From positions 1 through 6,141 of the forward strand of contig JAOTXR010000140.1 of NCBI GenBank assembly GCA_029862285.1: a DNA stretch of 6,141 bases. Reading direction: 5' to 3'. Both the position numbers and the translations under genes were made by a program. The notes beneath the pieces were generated by a model. It was not told where the DNA came from. It saw only the letters and a program-made list of their open reading frames with translations, and ran no database searches. Of the stretch, positions 41 to 6,090 are shown piece after piece. Source of the stretch: Gammaproteobacteria bacterium (lineage in GTDB: Bacteria > Pseudomonadota > Gammaproteobacteria > Steroidobacterales > JABDKV01). The stretch's first letter is position 1. Each line of letters starts with the position of its first letter.

Positions 41-334
41 CTAAGGTGCCGGGCGAACCAGCGTCGCATTGACTTCAAACCGGGAGCCGTCGGTGGCGAC
101 CAGCTCTACCTGCCACAGTTCTTCGTCCGGTATTGACGTTCTCTCATGCCCGGGCAGCTCGCGCTCATCGTCCACCTGCAAGCCCCAGACGCGAACATGG
201 CGTATGCCACTGACTTCGATAGGTCCGTCGCCGAATCGGGCCCGTAGTTCCGGCGATGGCCCCTGATCGAGCCACATCACGCATCCACGTTGTTTTATCG
301 CAGCAATATGATCCGGTAGTTTGTGTTCAGTCAC
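41..334 (-). CDS. Small conserved-looking protein of unknown function downstream of sdhB
   Basis: This 97-residue protein is not one I recognise. It starts with GTG at 334-332, preceded by a near-perfect Shine-Dalgarno (AAAGGAGG, 8 nt upstream), and ends with TAG, so it is very probably translated. No signal peptide or membrane segment is visible. The N-terminal third (around KQRGCVMWLDQG) has a short hydrophobic stretch. The rest is acidic and rich in alternating hydrophobic/polar segments (IEVSGIRHVRVWGLQV, LWQVELVATDG, RFEVNATLV), which suggests a small beta-rich cytoplasmic domain. It lies 58 nt after the sdhB stop on the same strand, so it could be the last gene of the sdh operon; no terminator is evident in between. 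I considered the flavinylation factor SdhE because of its size and location, but the RGxxE motif is missing and the predicted fold is beta, not helical. Function is unassigned; a link to complex II is only a contextual inference. Confidence 0.75.
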   Translation of the reverse strand: MTEHKLPDHIAAIKQRGCVMWLDQGPSPELRARFGDGPIEVSGIRHVRVWGLQVDDERELPGHERTSIPDEELWQVELVATDGSRFEVNATLVRPAP

Positions 335-392: not shown

Positions 393-1208
393 TCAGTTTT
401 TCTCTCGGGCAGTAAATACCGGTGCTTTGAGTGAGTCATGATCGACGGTGGCACAGGTGTCGCAGGGTTGCGCCGGCGACCTGCGGCTAAAATGAAACAG
501 ATCCAGCACCAGGTCGCGCTTCATCAGTTGAATCGCACGGGCCGGGTCGACACCTTTGGGGCACACACGTGTGCACTCCGCGGCATAATGGCAGTGTGCG
601 ATGCTGTGATGACCATCCATTTTCTCTTTTCGTTTGGAAAAGCCGGTATCGCGTGAATCGCTATTGTAGCGATGAGTTGCGGTTAACGGCATCGGCCCCA
701 GAAAATGTGGATCATTCGCCAGCGTCGGGCATGCAGCCATGCAGGCACCGCACTTAATACAGGAAGAGAATTGCAGAAACTCATTGAGTTCTTCGGGCGA
801 CTGGCGTAGTTCGCTTTCGCCAGGCTTCGGCAGGTCGCCGCCGTCACGAATCAGGTAGGGCGCGATGTCACGGTGTTTCTCAAACATCGGCATCAGGTCC
901 GGTACCAGATCCTTGGCAACCGGAAAGTTCCAGAGTGCCTCGAGCGTTATCATCTGCGCACTCAGGTTTTGTATTTGGGTGTTGCACGCGAGTTGCGGTT
1001 CGCTGTTAATGATCATGGCGCAGGAACCGCAAACCCCCATGCGACAGGAATGCCGCCAGGCAAGCGTGGCATCGAGGCGTTCCCGAATTTGTTGCAGGCC
1101 CTGCAGCACAGTCATGCCGGGTTCTGTTTCCACACTGAAGGTCTGCCAGTATGGCGCAGTGTCTGTGGCCGATGAGTATCGCCGTATCTTGAATTTTATC
1201 TGGTTCAC
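393..1208 (-). CDS. sdhB: Succinate dehydrogenase/fumarate reductase iron-sulfur subunit
   Basis: This is the iron-sulfur subunit of complex II, carrying electrons from the SdhA FAD to the membrane quinone site. I chose the GTG at 1208-1206 (271 residues): it overlaps the sdhD stop (TAGTG) and puts the [2Fe-2S] cysteines at C55, C60, C63 and C75, the E. coli SdhB numbering. The frame stays open upstream to an ATG at 1283, but that extension lies inside sdhD and does not resemble SdhB. An N-terminal ferredoxin domain (about 1-105) precedes a helical domain with C150-x2-C153-x2-C156-x3-C160-P and C206-x5-C212-x3-C216-P, supplying the [4Fe-4S] and [3Fe-4S] clusters. H207, next to the quinone site in E. 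coli, is kept, but the quinone-pocket Trp of E. coli (W164) aligns with N165 or A164. A tail of about 35 residues (237-271) containing CDTC extends beyond the usual end near residue 238. Last sdh structural gene of the cluster, likely translationally coupled to sdhD. Confidence 0.96.
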   Translation of the reverse strand: MNQIKFKIRRYSSATDTAPYWQTFSVETEPGMTVLQGLQQIRERLDATLAWRHSCRMGVCGSCAMIINSEPQLACNTQIQNLSAQMITLEALWNFPVAKDLVPDLMPMFEKHRDIAPYLIRDGGDLPKPGESELRQSPEELNEFLQFSSCIKCGACMAACPTLANDPHFLGPMPLTATHRYNSDSRDTGFSKRKEKMDGHHSIAHCHYAAECTRVCPKGVDPARAIQLMKRDLVLDLFHFSRRSPAQPCDTCATVDHDSLKAPVFTAREKN

Positions 1209-1210
1209 TA
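1206..1210 (-). promoter_or_regulatory. Stop/start overlap TAGTG between sdhD and sdhB
   Basis: The sdhD stop TAG (1210-1208) and the sdhB start GTG (1208-1206) share one G. No good Shine-Dalgarno precedes the GTG (upstream bases read GGGTGCTGTG). Reinitiation by ribosomes finishing sdhD is therefore the likely route to sdhB translation, which would keep anchor and Fe-S subunit levels matched. Confidence 0.7.
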
Positions 1211-1576
1211 CACAGCACCCGGGCCAAAACTGATGGTTACATAGGCGCCGGTGAAAAACAGAGTCAGACCGGCGGCCCAGCACATCACCGTGACGATGTG
1301 CTCCGCACGTGGGCTGCTCCAGTACTCCAGCAGCATCGTGCGCAGGCCATAAAAACCATGAAACAGCGCCGTAGCAAGAAGCAGAACATAAGTTGACTTA
1401 AAAAAACCGCTGCCCGCACGTTCCAGCATGTTTTCCCAAGCCAGCGGATGCCCTGATGTATTCAATAGCGCTGCAAGCACACCATCCAGGTGCATGATGC
1501 CCATATGTAATCCGAGCAGGACCAGGATAACGACAGCGCACACGATATTCAGCAGCCAGTATATTGTTTCGCGCAT
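1208..1576 (-). CDS. sdhD: Succinate dehydrogenase membrane anchor subunit, second anchor (SdhD-like)
   Basis: This 122-residue integral membrane protein is one of two anchors that tether SdhA/SdhB to the cytoplasmic membrane and help form the quinone and heme b sites. Three hydrophobic helices are visible, at roughly residues 8-29, 61-84 and 94-115. Candidate heme-ligand histidines are H24 (or H29) in helix 1 and H73 in helix 2. Helix 2 contains FHGFYGLRTMLLEYW, clearly parallel to FHAFNGVRLILIELG in the first anchor, so the two anchors appear paralogous. The ATG at 1576 lies 3 nt past the sdhC stop, with no obvious Shine-Dalgarno, which suggests coupling. The stop overlaps the sdhB start. 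The C/D naming is by position only; with anchors this divergent the letters could be swapped. Sequence style resembles type A (two-anchor, two-heme) complexes of archaea and actinobacteria more than E. coli SdhD; this is from recalled motifs, not an alignment. Confidence 0.85.
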   Translation of the reverse strand: MRETIYWLLNIVCAVVILVLLGLHMGIMHLDGVLAALLNTSGHPLAWENMLERAGSGFFKSTYVLLLATALFHGFYGLRTMLLEYWSSPRAEHIVTVMCWAAGLTLFFTGAYVTISFGPGAV

Positions 1577-1579
1577 GGT

Positions 1580-2020
1580 CTAGTGTGGGAACCGTAGCAA
1601 GTCAAAACCACCCAGGGCGATCAATATTCCCGTGACGATCATCAGCACGATCATCAACGGTCGTTGTTTGTGTATCGATCCGCGATACGGAAATACCGGA
1701 TGATCCGGTCGCCCAACGGCTATACCAAGCTCTATCAGGATAAGTCGAACACCATTGAACGCATGGAAAATGAATGCGCAATAGACCAGGTATTCCAGGA
1801 AAACAAAAACCGGGCCCCTGGTCATTGACATCAGGCGTTCCCAGGTTTCTTGTCCTAGCAGGCGCGAGCCGGTAAAGAAGACGTGCATGCTGAGAAACAA
1901 AAGCAAGGCCACTCCGCTGATGCGATGCAGGACATAAAGATAACCTTCGAATCCATGTCTGCCGCCCATGAGCCAGCGCCAAATACCGATACGGTTGCTA
2001 TTGCCGGTGATTTGCTTCAT
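1580..2020 (-). CDS. sdhC: Succinate dehydrogenase cytochrome b-type membrane anchor (SdhC-like)
   Basis: This 146-residue membrane anchor of complex II has three helices, at about 30-50, 72-98 and 120-142. The motif HRISGVALLLFLSMH (H32, H46) in helix 1 and FHAFNGVRLILIE (H86) in helix 2 are hallmarks of the SdhC/cytochrome b556 family. In particular they recall the mycobacterial and archaeal form, where the FHxxNGxR stretch sits at the heme. H46 and H86 are the best candidates for axial heme ligands. The N-terminal 25 residues (RWLMGGRHGFEGY) are probably cytoplasmic and contact SdhB. The ATG at 2020 follows the sdhA stop by 11 nt, with an AGGA that overlaps the sdhA TAG as ribosome-binding site. 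It lies between sdhA and the second anchor, which is an unusual position, since sdhC usually leads the operon in proteobacteria. Confidence 0.9.
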   Translation of the reverse strand: MKQITGNSNRIGIWRWLMGGRHGFEGYLYVLHRISGVALLLFLSMHVFFTGSRLLGQETWERLMSMTRGPVFVFLEYLVYCAFIFHAFNGVRLILIELGIAVGRPDHPVFPYRGSIHKQRPLMIVLMIVTGILIALGGFDLLRFPH

Positions 2021-2029
2021 CCGGAAAGA

Positions 2030-2033
2030 TCCT
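2030..2033 (-). promoter_or_regulatory. Shine-Dalgarno of sdhC embedded in the sdhA stop
   Basis: On the minus strand the sdhA stop and following bases read TAGGATCTTTCCGG and then ATG. The AGGA (2033-2030) reuses two bases of the TAG stop and sits 9 nt from the sdhC ATG. This close packing supports translation of sdhA and sdhC from one message. Confidence 0.55.
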
Positions 2034-3750
2034 AGTATTTTCGTTCCACTGGATTCCAGTGCGTGATAGTTACCGGTTTGTCGCCGATTTCGGGTCCATC
2101 GTCAGTGCGCCGGATCAGAGTGTGCTTGAGCCAGTGTTCATCATCTCTTTGTGGAAAGTCACGGCGTGCGTGCCCACCACGGGATTCCTCGCGTGCCAGT
2201 GCCGCCATCATTGCGATCTCCGCAAGATCCAGCAGGTTTTCCAGTTCCAGCGTGTTGACCAGATTACTGTTGTACACGCGCCCCTTGTCCTCAATGGCGA
2301 TCTGCTGCCAGCGCCCGCGCAACTCACCGAGTTTCCGCAGGCCGGTCGAAATACCCTCGTGCGAGCGGAAGACACCCATACACTCATCCATAAGGCGACG
2401 CAGCTCATGACTCAATGCGTAGGGATTCTGGGGACCTTTACGCTCGAGCAGATCGCCGAAAACATGTTGCTCTTCAGCCGCTACCCGATCTGCCGGGACG
2501 GCCGGCAGAGGCTGCCCCGCCTGCAACACGTCGGCAATTTGTTCGCCGCAGATACCACCCCAGACCAGGCATTCTGCGGTTGAGTTGGTGCCGAGCCGGT
2601 TGGCGCCGTGCAGGGATACACAAGCGGCCTCACCGGCCGCCCATACCCCCTCAATATTGGTTTTACCGTGGATATCAGTTTCTATTCCGCCCATCGAATA
2701 ATGGGCGACTGGGCGCACCGGAATCGGGTCCACCACAGGGTCGACATCGACAAATTTCATGCACAGTTCCCGAATCAGGGGTAGCCGCCGGAGTACGACG
2801 TCTTTCCCCAGATGTGCCAGGTCAAGGTGCAGGTAGTCGAGTCCTTCCGGTCCCGAAAAACCACGGCCTTGCTCTATCTCCTGCATCATCGCACGCGAAA
2901 TAATGTCGCGTGGCGCCAGCTCCATTTTCCCCGGGGCATAGTCACTCATAAAACGCTTGCCGGTATTATTCAGCAAGTAGCCGCCTTCGCCACGGCACCC
3001 TTCGGTGATCAGGATGCCGGATGGAACCAATCCGGTGGGATGGAACTGGATGAATTCCATGTCCTCCAGCGCCACGCCTGCGCGATAGGCCATTGCCAGC
3101 CCGTCCCCGGTTACCGTCTGGGAGTACGTGGTAAAACCGAAGAGAGTTCCGGCACCACCGCTGGCGATCAATAATGCGCGTGCACGCAAGACCAGGAACT
3201 TGCCATCCATCATATCGATAGCGGTAAGTGCACAGAAATGGCCATCGTCCACGATGATAGATGTGACAAAAACCTCATCGTAGCGAGTGAAGTTGTCGTA
3301 TTTCTGCAGCGTGTCGTACAGCGTCTGCATTTCGTAAAAACCGGTCTTGTCCGCGGCCATGGTTGCACGCGGAAAGCTGTGGCCGCCAAAATCACGTTGC
3401 AGAATTCGCCCATCTTCACGGCGTGACCACGGCAGACCCCAACGCTCCAATTGATAGATTTCATCAGGCGCCTGTTCGACAAAACGGAATACGACATCCT
3501 GGTCGGCAAGGAAGTCCGAGCCTTTGATGGTGTCCCAGGCATGCAAGTCGAGATTATCGCCTTCGTCGTTTTGCAGAACTGCTGCCGTGCCACCCTCGGC
3601 ACACACTGAATGCGAGCGCATGAGCTGCACTTTGGATACCAGACCGATATTCACATTTTGCTCGAGTCGGCGCGCAATCCCCAGCGCAGCACGCAGCCCG
3701 GCCAGCCCGGTGCCTAATATCAATACATCATGCGTTATTTGTTCTGCCAC
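2032..3750 (-). CDS. sdhA: Succinate dehydrogenase/fumarate reductase flavoprotein subunit
   Basis: This is the catalytic subunit of complex II, 572 residues (E. coli SdhA has 588), oxidising succinate to fumarate with covalently bound FAD on the cytoplasmic face of the membrane. Visible motifs, in order: GTGLAG (13-18) for FAD binding; RSHSVCAEGG with H47, equivalent to the flavin-linking histidine; FGGHSFPR (121-128); HPTG with H237; TEGCRGEGG with E250; PRD with R281, matching the general-acid arginine; HYSMGG with H350; GANRLGTNS with R385; and the C-terminal SRGGHARRDFP and RDDEHWLKHTL. All key active-site residues are present and the C-terminus is complete. The start is GTG at 3750; an in-frame TGA at 3783-3781 leaves no other start, and GTGAG about 6 nt upstream is a weak ribosome-binding site. 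The RLGTNSTAECLVWG segment differs from E. coli (GGNSLLDL) and is closer to archaeal and Gram-positive forms. First gene of the cluster. Sequence alone does not settle whether succinate oxidation or fumarate reduction dominates. Confidence 0.97.
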   Translation of the reverse strand: MAEQITHDVLILGTGLAGLRAALGIARRLEQNVNIGLVSKVQLMRSHSVCAEGGTAAVLQNDEGDNLDLHAWDTIKGSDFLADQDVVFRFVEQAPDEIYQLERWGLPWSRREDGRILQRDFGGHSFPRATMAADKTGFYEMQTLYDTLQKYDNFTRYDEVFVTSIIVDDGHFCALTAIDMMDGKFLVLRARALLIASGGAGTLFGFTTYSQTVTGDGLAMAYRAGVALEDMEFIQFHPTGLVPSGILITEGCRGEGGYLLNNTGKRFMSDYAPGKMELAPRDIISRAMMQEIEQGRGFSGPEGLDYLHLDLAHLGKDVVLRRLPLIRELCMKFVDVDPVVDPIPVRPVAHYSMGGIETDIHGKTNIEGVWAAGEAACVSLHGANRLGTNSTAECLVWGGICGEQIADVLQAGQPLPAVPADRVAAEEQHVFGDLLERKGPQNPYALSHELRRLMDECMGVFRSHEGISTGLRKLGELRGRWQQIAIEDKGRVYNSNLVNTLELENLLDLAEIAMMAALAREESRGGHARRDFPQRDDEHWLKHTLIRRTDDGPEIGDKPVTITHWNPVERKY

Positions 3751-3862: not shown

Positions 3863-5272
3863 CTAGCCCGGCGATTGTGGGTCGCGGCGGGGAACTATAT
3901 CGAAGCAAATACTGACGCCGCGTTTATCATCCCGAAGTGGCAAGCTTTGGTAATAAAAGTAGGATGGGAACAACACCAGTTCTCCTGCTTTGGGCTGGTA
4001 TCGGTGCACCGGCGTTTGTGATTGCGAACACAGGTCATCAGCTGACTGTCCGAATTCGATCCAGCCGAGTTGCGATGAGTTTTTGGCTGGCAACGAACAG
4101 TCGACAAAGAAAAGGCCACTCAACCACCCCGACGGGCGTATTTGGGCTTGTTGGCCGGCTTCGAGGTGCAAAGGGGCCGCCCACATGTCCAATCGCCAGG
4201 CCTCCGGCGGTTGCCAGAGTGATCCTAATCCCGGAACCGGTTGCCACGTATCGGGGCGGGTGGCGATGTAGTCACGCACCTGCCCGCGGATTGCACTGAC
4301 CAAATGCGCTATCGTCGGATGCTGCGCTGGCAACAGACCGCCGGTCTCCTGGCCGGCACGAAGAGAGGGATGGGCCAGCAGGTATTCATGTAGCGAGGCC
4401 AGGTATTCCGCCAGTGTCTGCGACTGTGGCGGAGACACTGGCGCTATTCTCAACAAAGCATCGAAGTCCAGTAACTGTCCGGCAAGGTCGCGTCGATCCT
4501 TCTTGGTGTAAATCGCAGCAACCATTGCCAGCGATGTGACATCACCGGGTGATCGGCGCAAACAGTTCTCGTAAGCATGTAGCGCGCTTTCCAGTTGTCC
4601 GCCCGCAAACAGGCAGTTGCCAAGGTTCGCATACATCGCCGGTTGATGAGGTTGTAGCGTCAGGCTGCGTTGGAAGGCGCCAATCGCTTCGTCGTGGCAG
4701 CCCAGCGCTGCAAGTGCATTGCCGAGGTTACCGTGCGCGGCCGGTAAATCTGGTTTTAGCTCGACAGCGCGACGGCAGAGCGCCACAGACTCACTATTAC
4801 GGCCGAGTTGATGCAACAGTGCGCCCATGTTGACCAGCAGCGACCCATCATCGCCGCTTACTTTTTGGGCGGCAGCGTAGTATTGCAGCGCTTGTGCTGG
4901 TTCGCCCCTGCGATGCAGTAGCAGTCCCAGTCGAAACAACGCCTGGAAATTACCCGGATCGGCTTTTAGAGCTGCCCGAAAGGCGTCAATGGCCTCGCGT
5001 GGGCGCCCGGTGGTTTGCAGCAACAAACCGAGTCCGACGCGATAATCAGGCTCCTGTCCCGCAAATTCGATCGCCGAACGCAGCAGCGACTCGGCCGCCC
5101 GGGTGTCGCCGGTTTGCTGTGCGAGCACACCGAGCCAATGTAGCGCCCGATGGTCATCGGGTTGCTGCGACAGCGCCTCGCGATAACAGGCGGCCGCCTC
5201 GATGAGCTTTCCTTCGCGGTGGAGTGCGCGGCCTCGCTCGAAAGCGTTCGGTGATAGTGTTGGTCCAGTCAT
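3863..5272 (-). CDS. TPR-repeat protein with degenerate 2OG-Fe(II) oxygenase-like C-terminal domain
   Basis: This 469-residue, probably cytoplasmic protein has no signal peptide or membrane segment. Residues 8-244 form about seven 34-residue TPR units (repeated pattern LGxxLxxxGxxxEAIxAFxxALxxxP), a protein-interaction solenoid. A helical linker (about 245-340) leads to a C-terminal domain (about 343-462). Its landmarks SGWLSGLFFV (381-390), GELVLFPSYFYY (430-441) and ICFDIVP (455-461) match the 2OG-Fe(II) oxygenase family often fused to bacterial TPRs (Pfam 2OG-FeII_Oxy_5 type). Members usually carry HxH just before the GWLSG motif and a His after FPSYF as iron ligands. Here these positions are Q377, R379 and Y441, and the cofactor arginine is uncertain (R451 or G452). 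Catalysis as a normal dioxygenase is therefore doubtful; a scaffolding or binding role is an inference. ATG 5272 is the only possible start (in-frame TGA at 5305-5303), with no clear Shine-Dalgarno. It precedes sdhA by 112 nt on the same strand and diverges from the pirin gene. Partner and pathway are unknown. Confidence 0.9.
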   Translation of the reverse strand: MTGPTLSPNAFERGRALHREGKLIEAAACYREALSQQPDDHRALHWLGVLAQQTGDTRAAESLLRSAIEFAGQEPDYRVGLGLLLQTTGRPREAIDAFRAALKADPGNFQALFRLGLLLHRRGEPAQALQYYAAAQKVSGDDGSLLVNMGALLHQLGRNSESVALCRRAVELKPDLPAAHGNLGNALAALGCHDEAIGAFQRSLTLQPHQPAMYANLGNCLFAGGQLESALHAYENCLRRSPGDVTSLAMVAAIYTKKDRRDLAGQLLDFDALLRIAPVSPPQSQTLAEYLASLHEYLLAHPSLRAGQETGGLLPAQHPTIAHLVSAIRGQVRDYIATRPDTWQPVPGLGSLWQPPEAWRLDMWAAPLHLEAGQQAQIRPSGWLSGLFFVDCSLPAKNSSQLGWIEFGQSADDLCSQSQTPVHRYQPKAGELVLFPSYFYYQSLPLRDDKRGVSICFDIVPRRDPQSPG

Positions 5273-5372: not shown

Positions 5373-5382
5373 CAGCTTACCG

Positions 5383-6090
5383 ATGATTACAGTTCATATA
5401 CGTAGCGAGAGGGAACGATCCATGCGGATCTCCCACGGCATGTCCGGTAGTTTTTGCATCCCCGAAAAACAATCTACGGAACAGGACAGTTTTTCGTGTA
5501 TGCAAGGCATCGATGAATACGCGATAGATCCGGGGGTAGTGTTTGATAGCCATTCGCACCGGGAGGTTGAAATCCTGACCTATATCGTCGATGGAATACT
5601 CGAATATCGAGACGAAGCCGGGCGCCGGCGTTTGTTGCTGGGAGGGGAGGTGCAATTGGTCGGTGCTGGCAGCGGTATCACGCATAGCGAAAGTAACGCA
5701 TCGCATTCGGAGTCACTGCATGTGGTACAGGCGTGGTTTCGACCCGATCACAGCAAGAAGGCCGATAGATCCTACCAGCAACGTTATTTCCCCGACGACG
5801 GCAAGCGGGACAAACTGTGCCTGATCGCGTCGGGTGACGCGCGCGACGCTTCGCTGAGTCTATCGCAGGATGTCGATGTCTACGCAGGAACGCTGCATCG
5901 CGCGGAACCGGTTGTACATCAACGCAAGACGGGTCGGCGGGTATGGGTGCAAATCGCTCGCGGTGCGTTGAGTATAAACGACGTTGCGCTGGGCCCCGGC
6001 GATGCTGCAGCAATAAGCGGCGACGAAGACAAGGGACTGCGCCTGCAAGCTCAGGGAGAAGCCGAGTTTTTGCTGATCGATCTACCCTAG
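5383..6090 (+). CDS. Pirin family protein (bicupin, YhhW-like)
   Basis: This 235-residue cytoplasmic protein matches the pirin family in length (E. coli YhhW has 231) and sequence. The N-terminal cupin holds the metal site: H57 and H59 in DSHSHREVEILTYIVDG, and H101 and E103 in GAGSGITHSES. These numbers equal those of YhhW/human pirin when the ATG at 5383 is used, which is why I prefer it to the in-frame ATG at 5299. The C-terminal cupin carries the family-typical RRVWVQIARGALSIN (about 184-198) and the ending EAEFLLIDLP. YhhW and human pirin can oxidise quercetin in vitro, but the physiological role of bacterial pirins is mostly unclear, and nothing here shows the substrate. The early HGWLDSWHTFSF segment typical of pirins is not conserved (residues about 18-30 differ). 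There is no obvious Shine-Dalgarno. It is divergent from the TPR gene and may share regulation with it. Confidence 0.92.
   Translation: MITVHIRSERERSMRISHGMSGSFCIPEKQSTEQDSFSCMQGIDEYAIDPGVVFDSHSHREVEILTYIVDGILEYRDEAGRRRLLLGGEVQLVGAGSGITHSESNASHSESLHVVQAWFRPDHSKKADRSYQQRYFPDDGKRDKLCLIASGDARDASLSLSQDVDVYAGTLHRAEPVVHQRKTGRRVWVQIARGALSINDVALGPGDAAAISGDEDKGLRLQAQGEAEFLLIDLP

Follow-up and report, generated by a model that had tools for sequence, protein, structure and literature searches.

In human AspH a TPR superhelix precedes the oxygenase fold. Its metal site has two His ligands only, its TPR domain contributes to the binding of substrate, and AspH without the TPR domain turns over 2OG but does not hydroxylate the protein substrate (PMC6817910). 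Variants with a single His keep turnover (PMC10947486). Because AspH works with two His ligands and its single-His variants work as well, the loss of one or two ligands is insufficient to call such a protein dead. The JmjC domain is a member of the 2OG-oxygenase fold. Dead members of the wider fold are already known, for example JARID2, a JmjC protein described as having no demethylase activity and serving recruitment rather than catalysis (PMC4687429). JARID2 differs from the protein described here in being eukaryotic and in belonging to another subfamily with other partners, and it serves as an analogy only. The PF13759 (2OG-FeII_Oxy_5) domain is common in related genomes but hardly described: among the open-licence papers searched, four mention any of three names of the family, and we found no prior report of a TPR/PF13759 pseudo-oxygenase there.

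We analysed a window of 6,141 nucleotides, which is the whole of contig G000:C41 in a 2.5-Mb assembly of 462 contigs that is 70.66% complete (genome G000). An ORF on the reverse strand, open over its whole length, encodes the window protein (P0001), with a TPR array and a C-terminal oxygenase domain (Table 1). Its description in the earlier note as a TPR-fused member of the PF13759 family was borne out by Pfam, which gave 40.2 bits (E 4.8e-10) for PF13759 against a cut-off of 27. The divergent pirin-family gene allows the orthologous locus to be recognised in genomes G001 and G003; these two genomes and G002 are of the same genus as G000. After the TPR gene, on the same strand, come sdhA, sdhC, a putative sdhD (called by position, without an NCBIfam match) and sdhB. 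The classical order of the sdh genes is CDAB, and the order in the window differs from it. The distance between sdhA and the TPR gene is about 33 kb in G003, and in G001 sdhA is on a separate contig. No promoter-like or terminator-like sites were found on the TPR gene's strand between 3600 and 5420, and a search for tRNA found none.

Table 1. Features of the window (residue numbers refer to the window protein).
Feature	Position	Strand	Basis or remark
97-aa ORF after sdhB	41..334	-	unmatched in Pfam and NCBIfam at the thresholds applied
Succinate dehydrogenase genes	393..3750	-	order A, C, putative D, B
sdhA	2032..3750	-	downstream of the TPR gene, same strand
TPR-oxygenase ORF, 469 aa	3863..5272	-	TPR array and C-terminal PF13759 domain
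PF13759 match, residues 363-458	3899..4186	-	Pfam
G452 (GGC)	3917..3919	-	column of the conserved Arg
Y441-Q442-S443	3944..3952	-	replaces conserved H-R-T (distal His); Y441 TAC at 3952-3950
R379 (CGC)	4136..4138	-	column of the second His of H-x-H
Q377 (CAA)	4142..4144	-	column of the first His of H-x-H
E371-A372-G373	4154..4162	-	replaces conserved GGH
Linker/hinge, residues 271-342	4247..4462	-	bounds set by us
Junction A306/G307, nine residues gone	4352..4357	-	intact relatives carry an EPDSHTTRK-type segment
TPR region, residues 1-270	4463..5272	-	PF00515, 133.3 bits, 6 stretches; paired helices predicted
Pirin-family gene, divergent	5377..6090	+	Pfam Pirin and Pirin_C_2

We compared the predicted metal site with that of the family in two alignments, the first against 19 relatives. 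In both, the H-x-H...H columns are occupied by Q377, R379 and Y441, and the loss of all three predicted iron ligands claimed in the earlier note is thereby confirmed. Each of the three codons is one base from a His codon, and the span assigned to them, 3950-4144, proved exact when read directly. The conserved Arg 11 residues past the distal His, presumably the usual 2OG-binding position of the superfamily, is also gone (R452G). R451 stands one place ahead of this column, and a shifted Arg anchor through it is conceivable. In addition, the flanks of the site have changed (GGH to EAG at 371-373 and HRT to YQS at 441-443), and the nine-residue deletion lies in a conserved segment upstream of the PF13759 domain. 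Neither the H-x-H...H pattern of PF13759 nor the two-His site of the AspH type was found in the window protein, which goes beyond the AspH case in that all three His and the Arg are gone. H369 and H423 had been named as alternative ligands; both match histidines of the intact relative P0002 outside the triad columns, and they were ruled out.

The frame is intact and the scaffold motifs PSGWLSG, GELVLFPSYF and CFDIVP are present, as had been noted. Five of the six inter-motif intervals have the same length as in P0002 and the sixth holds the upstream nine-residue deletion, which argues that the motifs are aligned without misregister. The changes in the Arg, the flanks and the upstream segment go beyond those listed in the earlier note. 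Two solved relatives, the uncharacterised proteins PDB 2rg4 and 3bvc, are related to the domain by profile (E 9.5e-12 and 8.8e-11, respectively) and have HIHP, the distal His and the Arg at these columns in the profile alignment. Unlike the window protein, they keep these site residues, and their chains of 216 and 212 residues lack such a TPR array. A single-sequence search with the window's own domain gave no PDB match. The window protein combines lost catalytic residues with an intact frame, as would a pseudoenzyme, and judging from the residues at the site its domain has probably lost the ability to bind iron and 2-oxoglutarate. A Pfam match above the cut-off does not prove oxygenase activity.

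We then surveyed related domains in 169 fetched proteins and 29 of 30 domain loci (all but the window's own locus), using a profile derived from 19 intact proteins. HHHR was found in 94 of the 98 domain rows retrieved, which indicates that the lost residues are not a matter of chance. The other four rows are the window gene, P0008 and L020 (one gene of G003, counted twice), and P0013, in which the first two His are intact and the C-terminal part of the sequence is garbled just ahead of the distal His. Distinct proteins number slightly fewer than 98, as L010 and P0003 come from one gene, and so, probably, do L011 and P0010. Since similarity to the query decided which rows were taken and the profile came from intact proteins, dead members elsewhere may be missed. 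A PF13759 match was present in 53 of the 97 genomes searched, the window's genome included; there were three matches in G000, four in G001, one in G002, none in G003 and five in G004.

Comparison of the nearest relatives revealed states in or near one genus in which the gene is intact, degenerate or absent beside pirin. First, P0002, the closest homologue with 70% identity (encoded on a 2,580-base ENA contig), has all four residues intact, as has P0003, the same-genus orthologue in G001 with 53% identity (HLHP...H...R). Both have the layout of the window protein, in which the TPR array is followed by the linker and the domain, and P0003 is encoded at the same pirin-linked locus; they differ from it in keeping the three His, the Arg and the EPDSHTTRK-type segment. 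Second, P0008 of G003, whose gene is divergent from pirin like those of P0003 and the window protein, reads P, H, Y and M in the four site columns of the MAFFT alignment, versus Q, R, Y and G in the window protein; the last two of these columns are unaligned for P0008 in the profile alignment. The Pfam search found no PF13759 match left in P0008, nor one anywhere in G003, which is 95% complete. Finally, in G002 (94% complete) pirin is present without a TPR-oxygenase gene beside it. The sole PF13759 match of G002 is in another gene, and what resembles P0008 most in this genome is a TPR match of 26% at a different place. Genes that by eye resemble cytochrome genes adjoin pirin in G002 instead (G002:C6, L129, 3636-5095).

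Of the four genomes of the genus, two (G000 and G003) have a dead or damaged site, and the nearest relative is intact. The expected clade of conserved non-catalytic proteins reading Q/R/Y was not found among the homologues retrieved, with P0002 and P0003 intact and P0008 reading otherwise. The opposite expectation, a single-strain oddity, agrees with the intact close homologues but not with G003, where the gene beside pirin has lost the site as well. When the C-terminal region of P0008 was used as the query, only P0008 itself was matched among 1804 candidates; this is a weak absence, because the query missed the known P0001 and P0002 too. P0001 and P0002, 70% identical without and with the site, offer biochemistry a close before-and-after pair for how an enzyme may become a binding protein, and the range of states within the genus, from intact through degenerate to absent beside pirin, is a natural test of TPR use apart from catalysis.

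We favour, with a probability of roughly 0.52, the reading that the window protein binds partners through its TPR region and carries an oxygenase domain that is still folded but catalytically dead, so that it would be a protein-binding scaffold and not an enzyme. In the intact ancestor, a protein substrate would have lain between the TPR superhelix on one side and the oxygenase domain on the other, as in human AspH. Once catalysis was lost, the TPR groove may have kept its partner binding, and the dead fold may have been retained as a cap or as part of the interface. Pairing of the dead subunit with an intact paralogue was also considered and was weakened by the lack of a PF13759 match in G003, although G000 has two others. 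These two loci, C268 and C129, keep HIHP, the distal His and the Arg (the Arg by eye); the simple site pattern used on them was present in 9 of 12 loci. A partnership between paralogues is possible in G000 and is not evident in G003.

The structure prediction proposed in the earlier note gave a model that is largely confident overall. The AlphaFold2 model of the window protein has a mean pLDDT of 92.4 and a pTM of 0.88. Its TPR blocks score 62 for residues 1-10 and 93-98 beyond; in the oxygenase domain strands are predicted and the blocks score 70-97, with 78 for the block of the lost H-x-H (371-380) and 70-78 for the other low blocks. The model of the more degenerate P0008 has a mean pLDDT of 91.0 and a pTM of 0.88, with some blocks at 65-66. 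Models of the AlphaFold2 type are not very sensitive to destabilising changes. In a Foldseek search the whole-chain model was aligned with human AspH over 486 columns, gaps included (E 2.8e-11, rmsd 10.5, 13% identity), which exceeds either part of the chain alone. AspH stood at rank 18, with TPR and O-GlcNAc-transferase structures heading the list, and in a second look with VIA-align it was absent among the 50 matches listed, which were dominated by TPR structures. The two proteins differ at the site, as AspH binds iron whereas in the window protein none of the three ligand columns of the family is occupied by His.

A strong rival, which we rate as a serious possibility though short of even odds, is that the oxygenase domain is a decaying passenger. 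Catalysis would have become useless in part of the genus, the TPR region would still be used, and the domain would be drifting toward loss. The coexistence of intact (G001, P0002), degenerate (G000, G003) and absent-beside-pirin (G002) states fits this explanation, as do the nine residues deleted in the window protein, the several deletions in P0008 and the missing PF13759 match in G003. The rates of change point the same way. With intact relatives as the reference, lone departures from the majority in the oxygenase domain numbered 19 in P0001 versus 1 in P0002 (63 sites, p=4e-5), and in the TPR region 10 versus 2 (131 sites, p=0.039); for P0008 versus P0002 they were 29 versus 1 (55 sites) and 28 versus 6 (131 sites), respectively. 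Among columns invariant in ten intact relatives, P0002 included, P0001 is changed in 6 of 57 in the TPR region, 1 of 10 in the linker and 14 of 50 in the oxygenase domain, and P0008 in 14, 7 and 31, with gaps counted as changes. The P0001 branch is 0.44 versus 0.14 for P0002 in the linker-plus-oxygenase tree and 0.24 versus 0.14 in the TPR tree, and that of P0008 is 1.78 versus 0.72 in the same two trees. Change is strongly raised in the oxygenase domain and somewhat in the TPR region too, which indicates that constraint on the oxygenase domain is weaker or of another kind, above all in P0008. In favour of the binding-protein reading, the PF00515 score of the TPR region stays high, at 133.3 bits in P0001 against 143.3 in P0002, 107.9 in P0003 and 102.5 in P0008. 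The changes in P0001 were marginally clustered near the ligands (p 0.04, 0.067, 0.15 and 0.065 within 3, 5, 8 and 10 residues), and this clustering was gone once the four catalytic residues were removed (p 1, 0.64, 0.67 and 0.36 at the same distances). The corresponding values for P0008 were 0.019, 0.020, 0.33 and 0.31. Pairwise dN/dS was unusable, because synonymous sites were saturated or nearly so.

To judge the open frames, we simulated drift without selection until the number of changed invariant columns equalled the observed number. No stop was left in 12-19% of the runs for P0001 (P 0.12-0.19), so that its open frame fits drift and says little for selection acting on the domain. The corresponding fraction for P0008, with deleted columns left out, was 3.8-5.9% (P 0.038-0.059), which makes its frame somewhat unlikely under drift. 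Against passenger decay, neither gene has a stop or frameshift, the WLSG, FG(Q) and GE-LFPS-F motifs are kept in both, and both models are largely confident. In P0008, five of the six inter-motif intervals differ in length from P0002 (two of six do in the intact P0003), and the flanking motifs are still in one frame. These results suggest that the domain is kept under selection in P0008. The earlier reading of a conserved non-catalytic derivative is supported in part, as to the loss of the site, but the faster change and the deletion partly suggest relaxed selection.

A narrower form of the binding-protein reading supposes one loss in an ancestor shared by G000 and G003, which would have yielded a binding-only pseudo-oxygenase that holds its former substrate unoxidised in the TPR cleft and has been kept since, G003 having the dead version alone. 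We consider this rather unlikely. The best tree pairs P0001 with P0002 (support 68 for the full length and 63 for the TPR region) and implies two separate losses, whereas a pair of P0001 and P0008 would mean one. The latter pair was not rejected (AU p 0.38 for the full length, 0.39 for the TPR region and 0.36 for linker plus oxygenase). A group of P0001, P0002 and P0008 has support of 63 in the full tree and 80 in the TPR tree, so that the intact P0002 is nested in a group that holds both degenerate proteins; the group is missing from the linker-plus-oxygenase tree, in which P0008 is a very long branch.

Site by site, the three proteins have 17 TPR, 1 linker and 5 oxygenase states in common against the majority of P0003-P0007, and 6, 1 and 1 of these, respectively, are absent from all five. 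Derived states common to P0001 and P0002 comprise 6 in the TPR region and 3 in the oxygenase domain (4 of the 9 absent from all five outgroups). Those of P0001 and P0008 comprise 3 and 4 (5 of the 7 absent, namely T366A, V387L, H441Y, R442Q and G259D), and those of P0002 and P0008 are 2 oxygenase states, of which 1 is absent from the outgroups. The two degenerate proteins have T366A, V387L, H441Y and R442Q in common, together with a deletion over the same stretch. These common changes would fit one loss or parallel change, and the other sites lean toward P0001 with P0002. The identities of sdhABCD, pirin and gyrB do not decide between one loss and two; rpoB was looked for in G001 and not found.

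It is improbable that the site works in an altered form, whether because some metal binding is left or has moved or because the pocket now serves a different reaction or ligand. The single-His variants of AspH that still turn over (PMC10947486), the His that P0008 keeps at the second H-x-H column and R451 beside the lost Arg column would favour such a site, but the window protein has lost all three His and the co-substrate Arg, and the GGH and HRT flanks are changed too. An artefact of misalignment, assembly error or wrong family call, which the fragmented assembly might suggest, has very little left to recommend it, given the Pfam match above the cut-off, the spacing equal to that of P0002 past the deletion, the many coherent substitutions in an open frame and the second genome that lost the site at the same locus.

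Other members of the family were seen in these genomes. Stand-alone PF13759 proteins with open frames of 203-209 aa are encoded at G000:C129 (L159), G001:C103 (L156) and G004:C246 (L154), and all three carry HIHP, the distal His and the Arg. On contig G000:C268 (L002, 3-2666, reverse strand) an 888-aa ORF runs past the contig end with the domain order TPR, intact PF13759, further TPR and Sulfotransfer_3, so that predicted hydroxylation and sulfation modules lie on a single chain.
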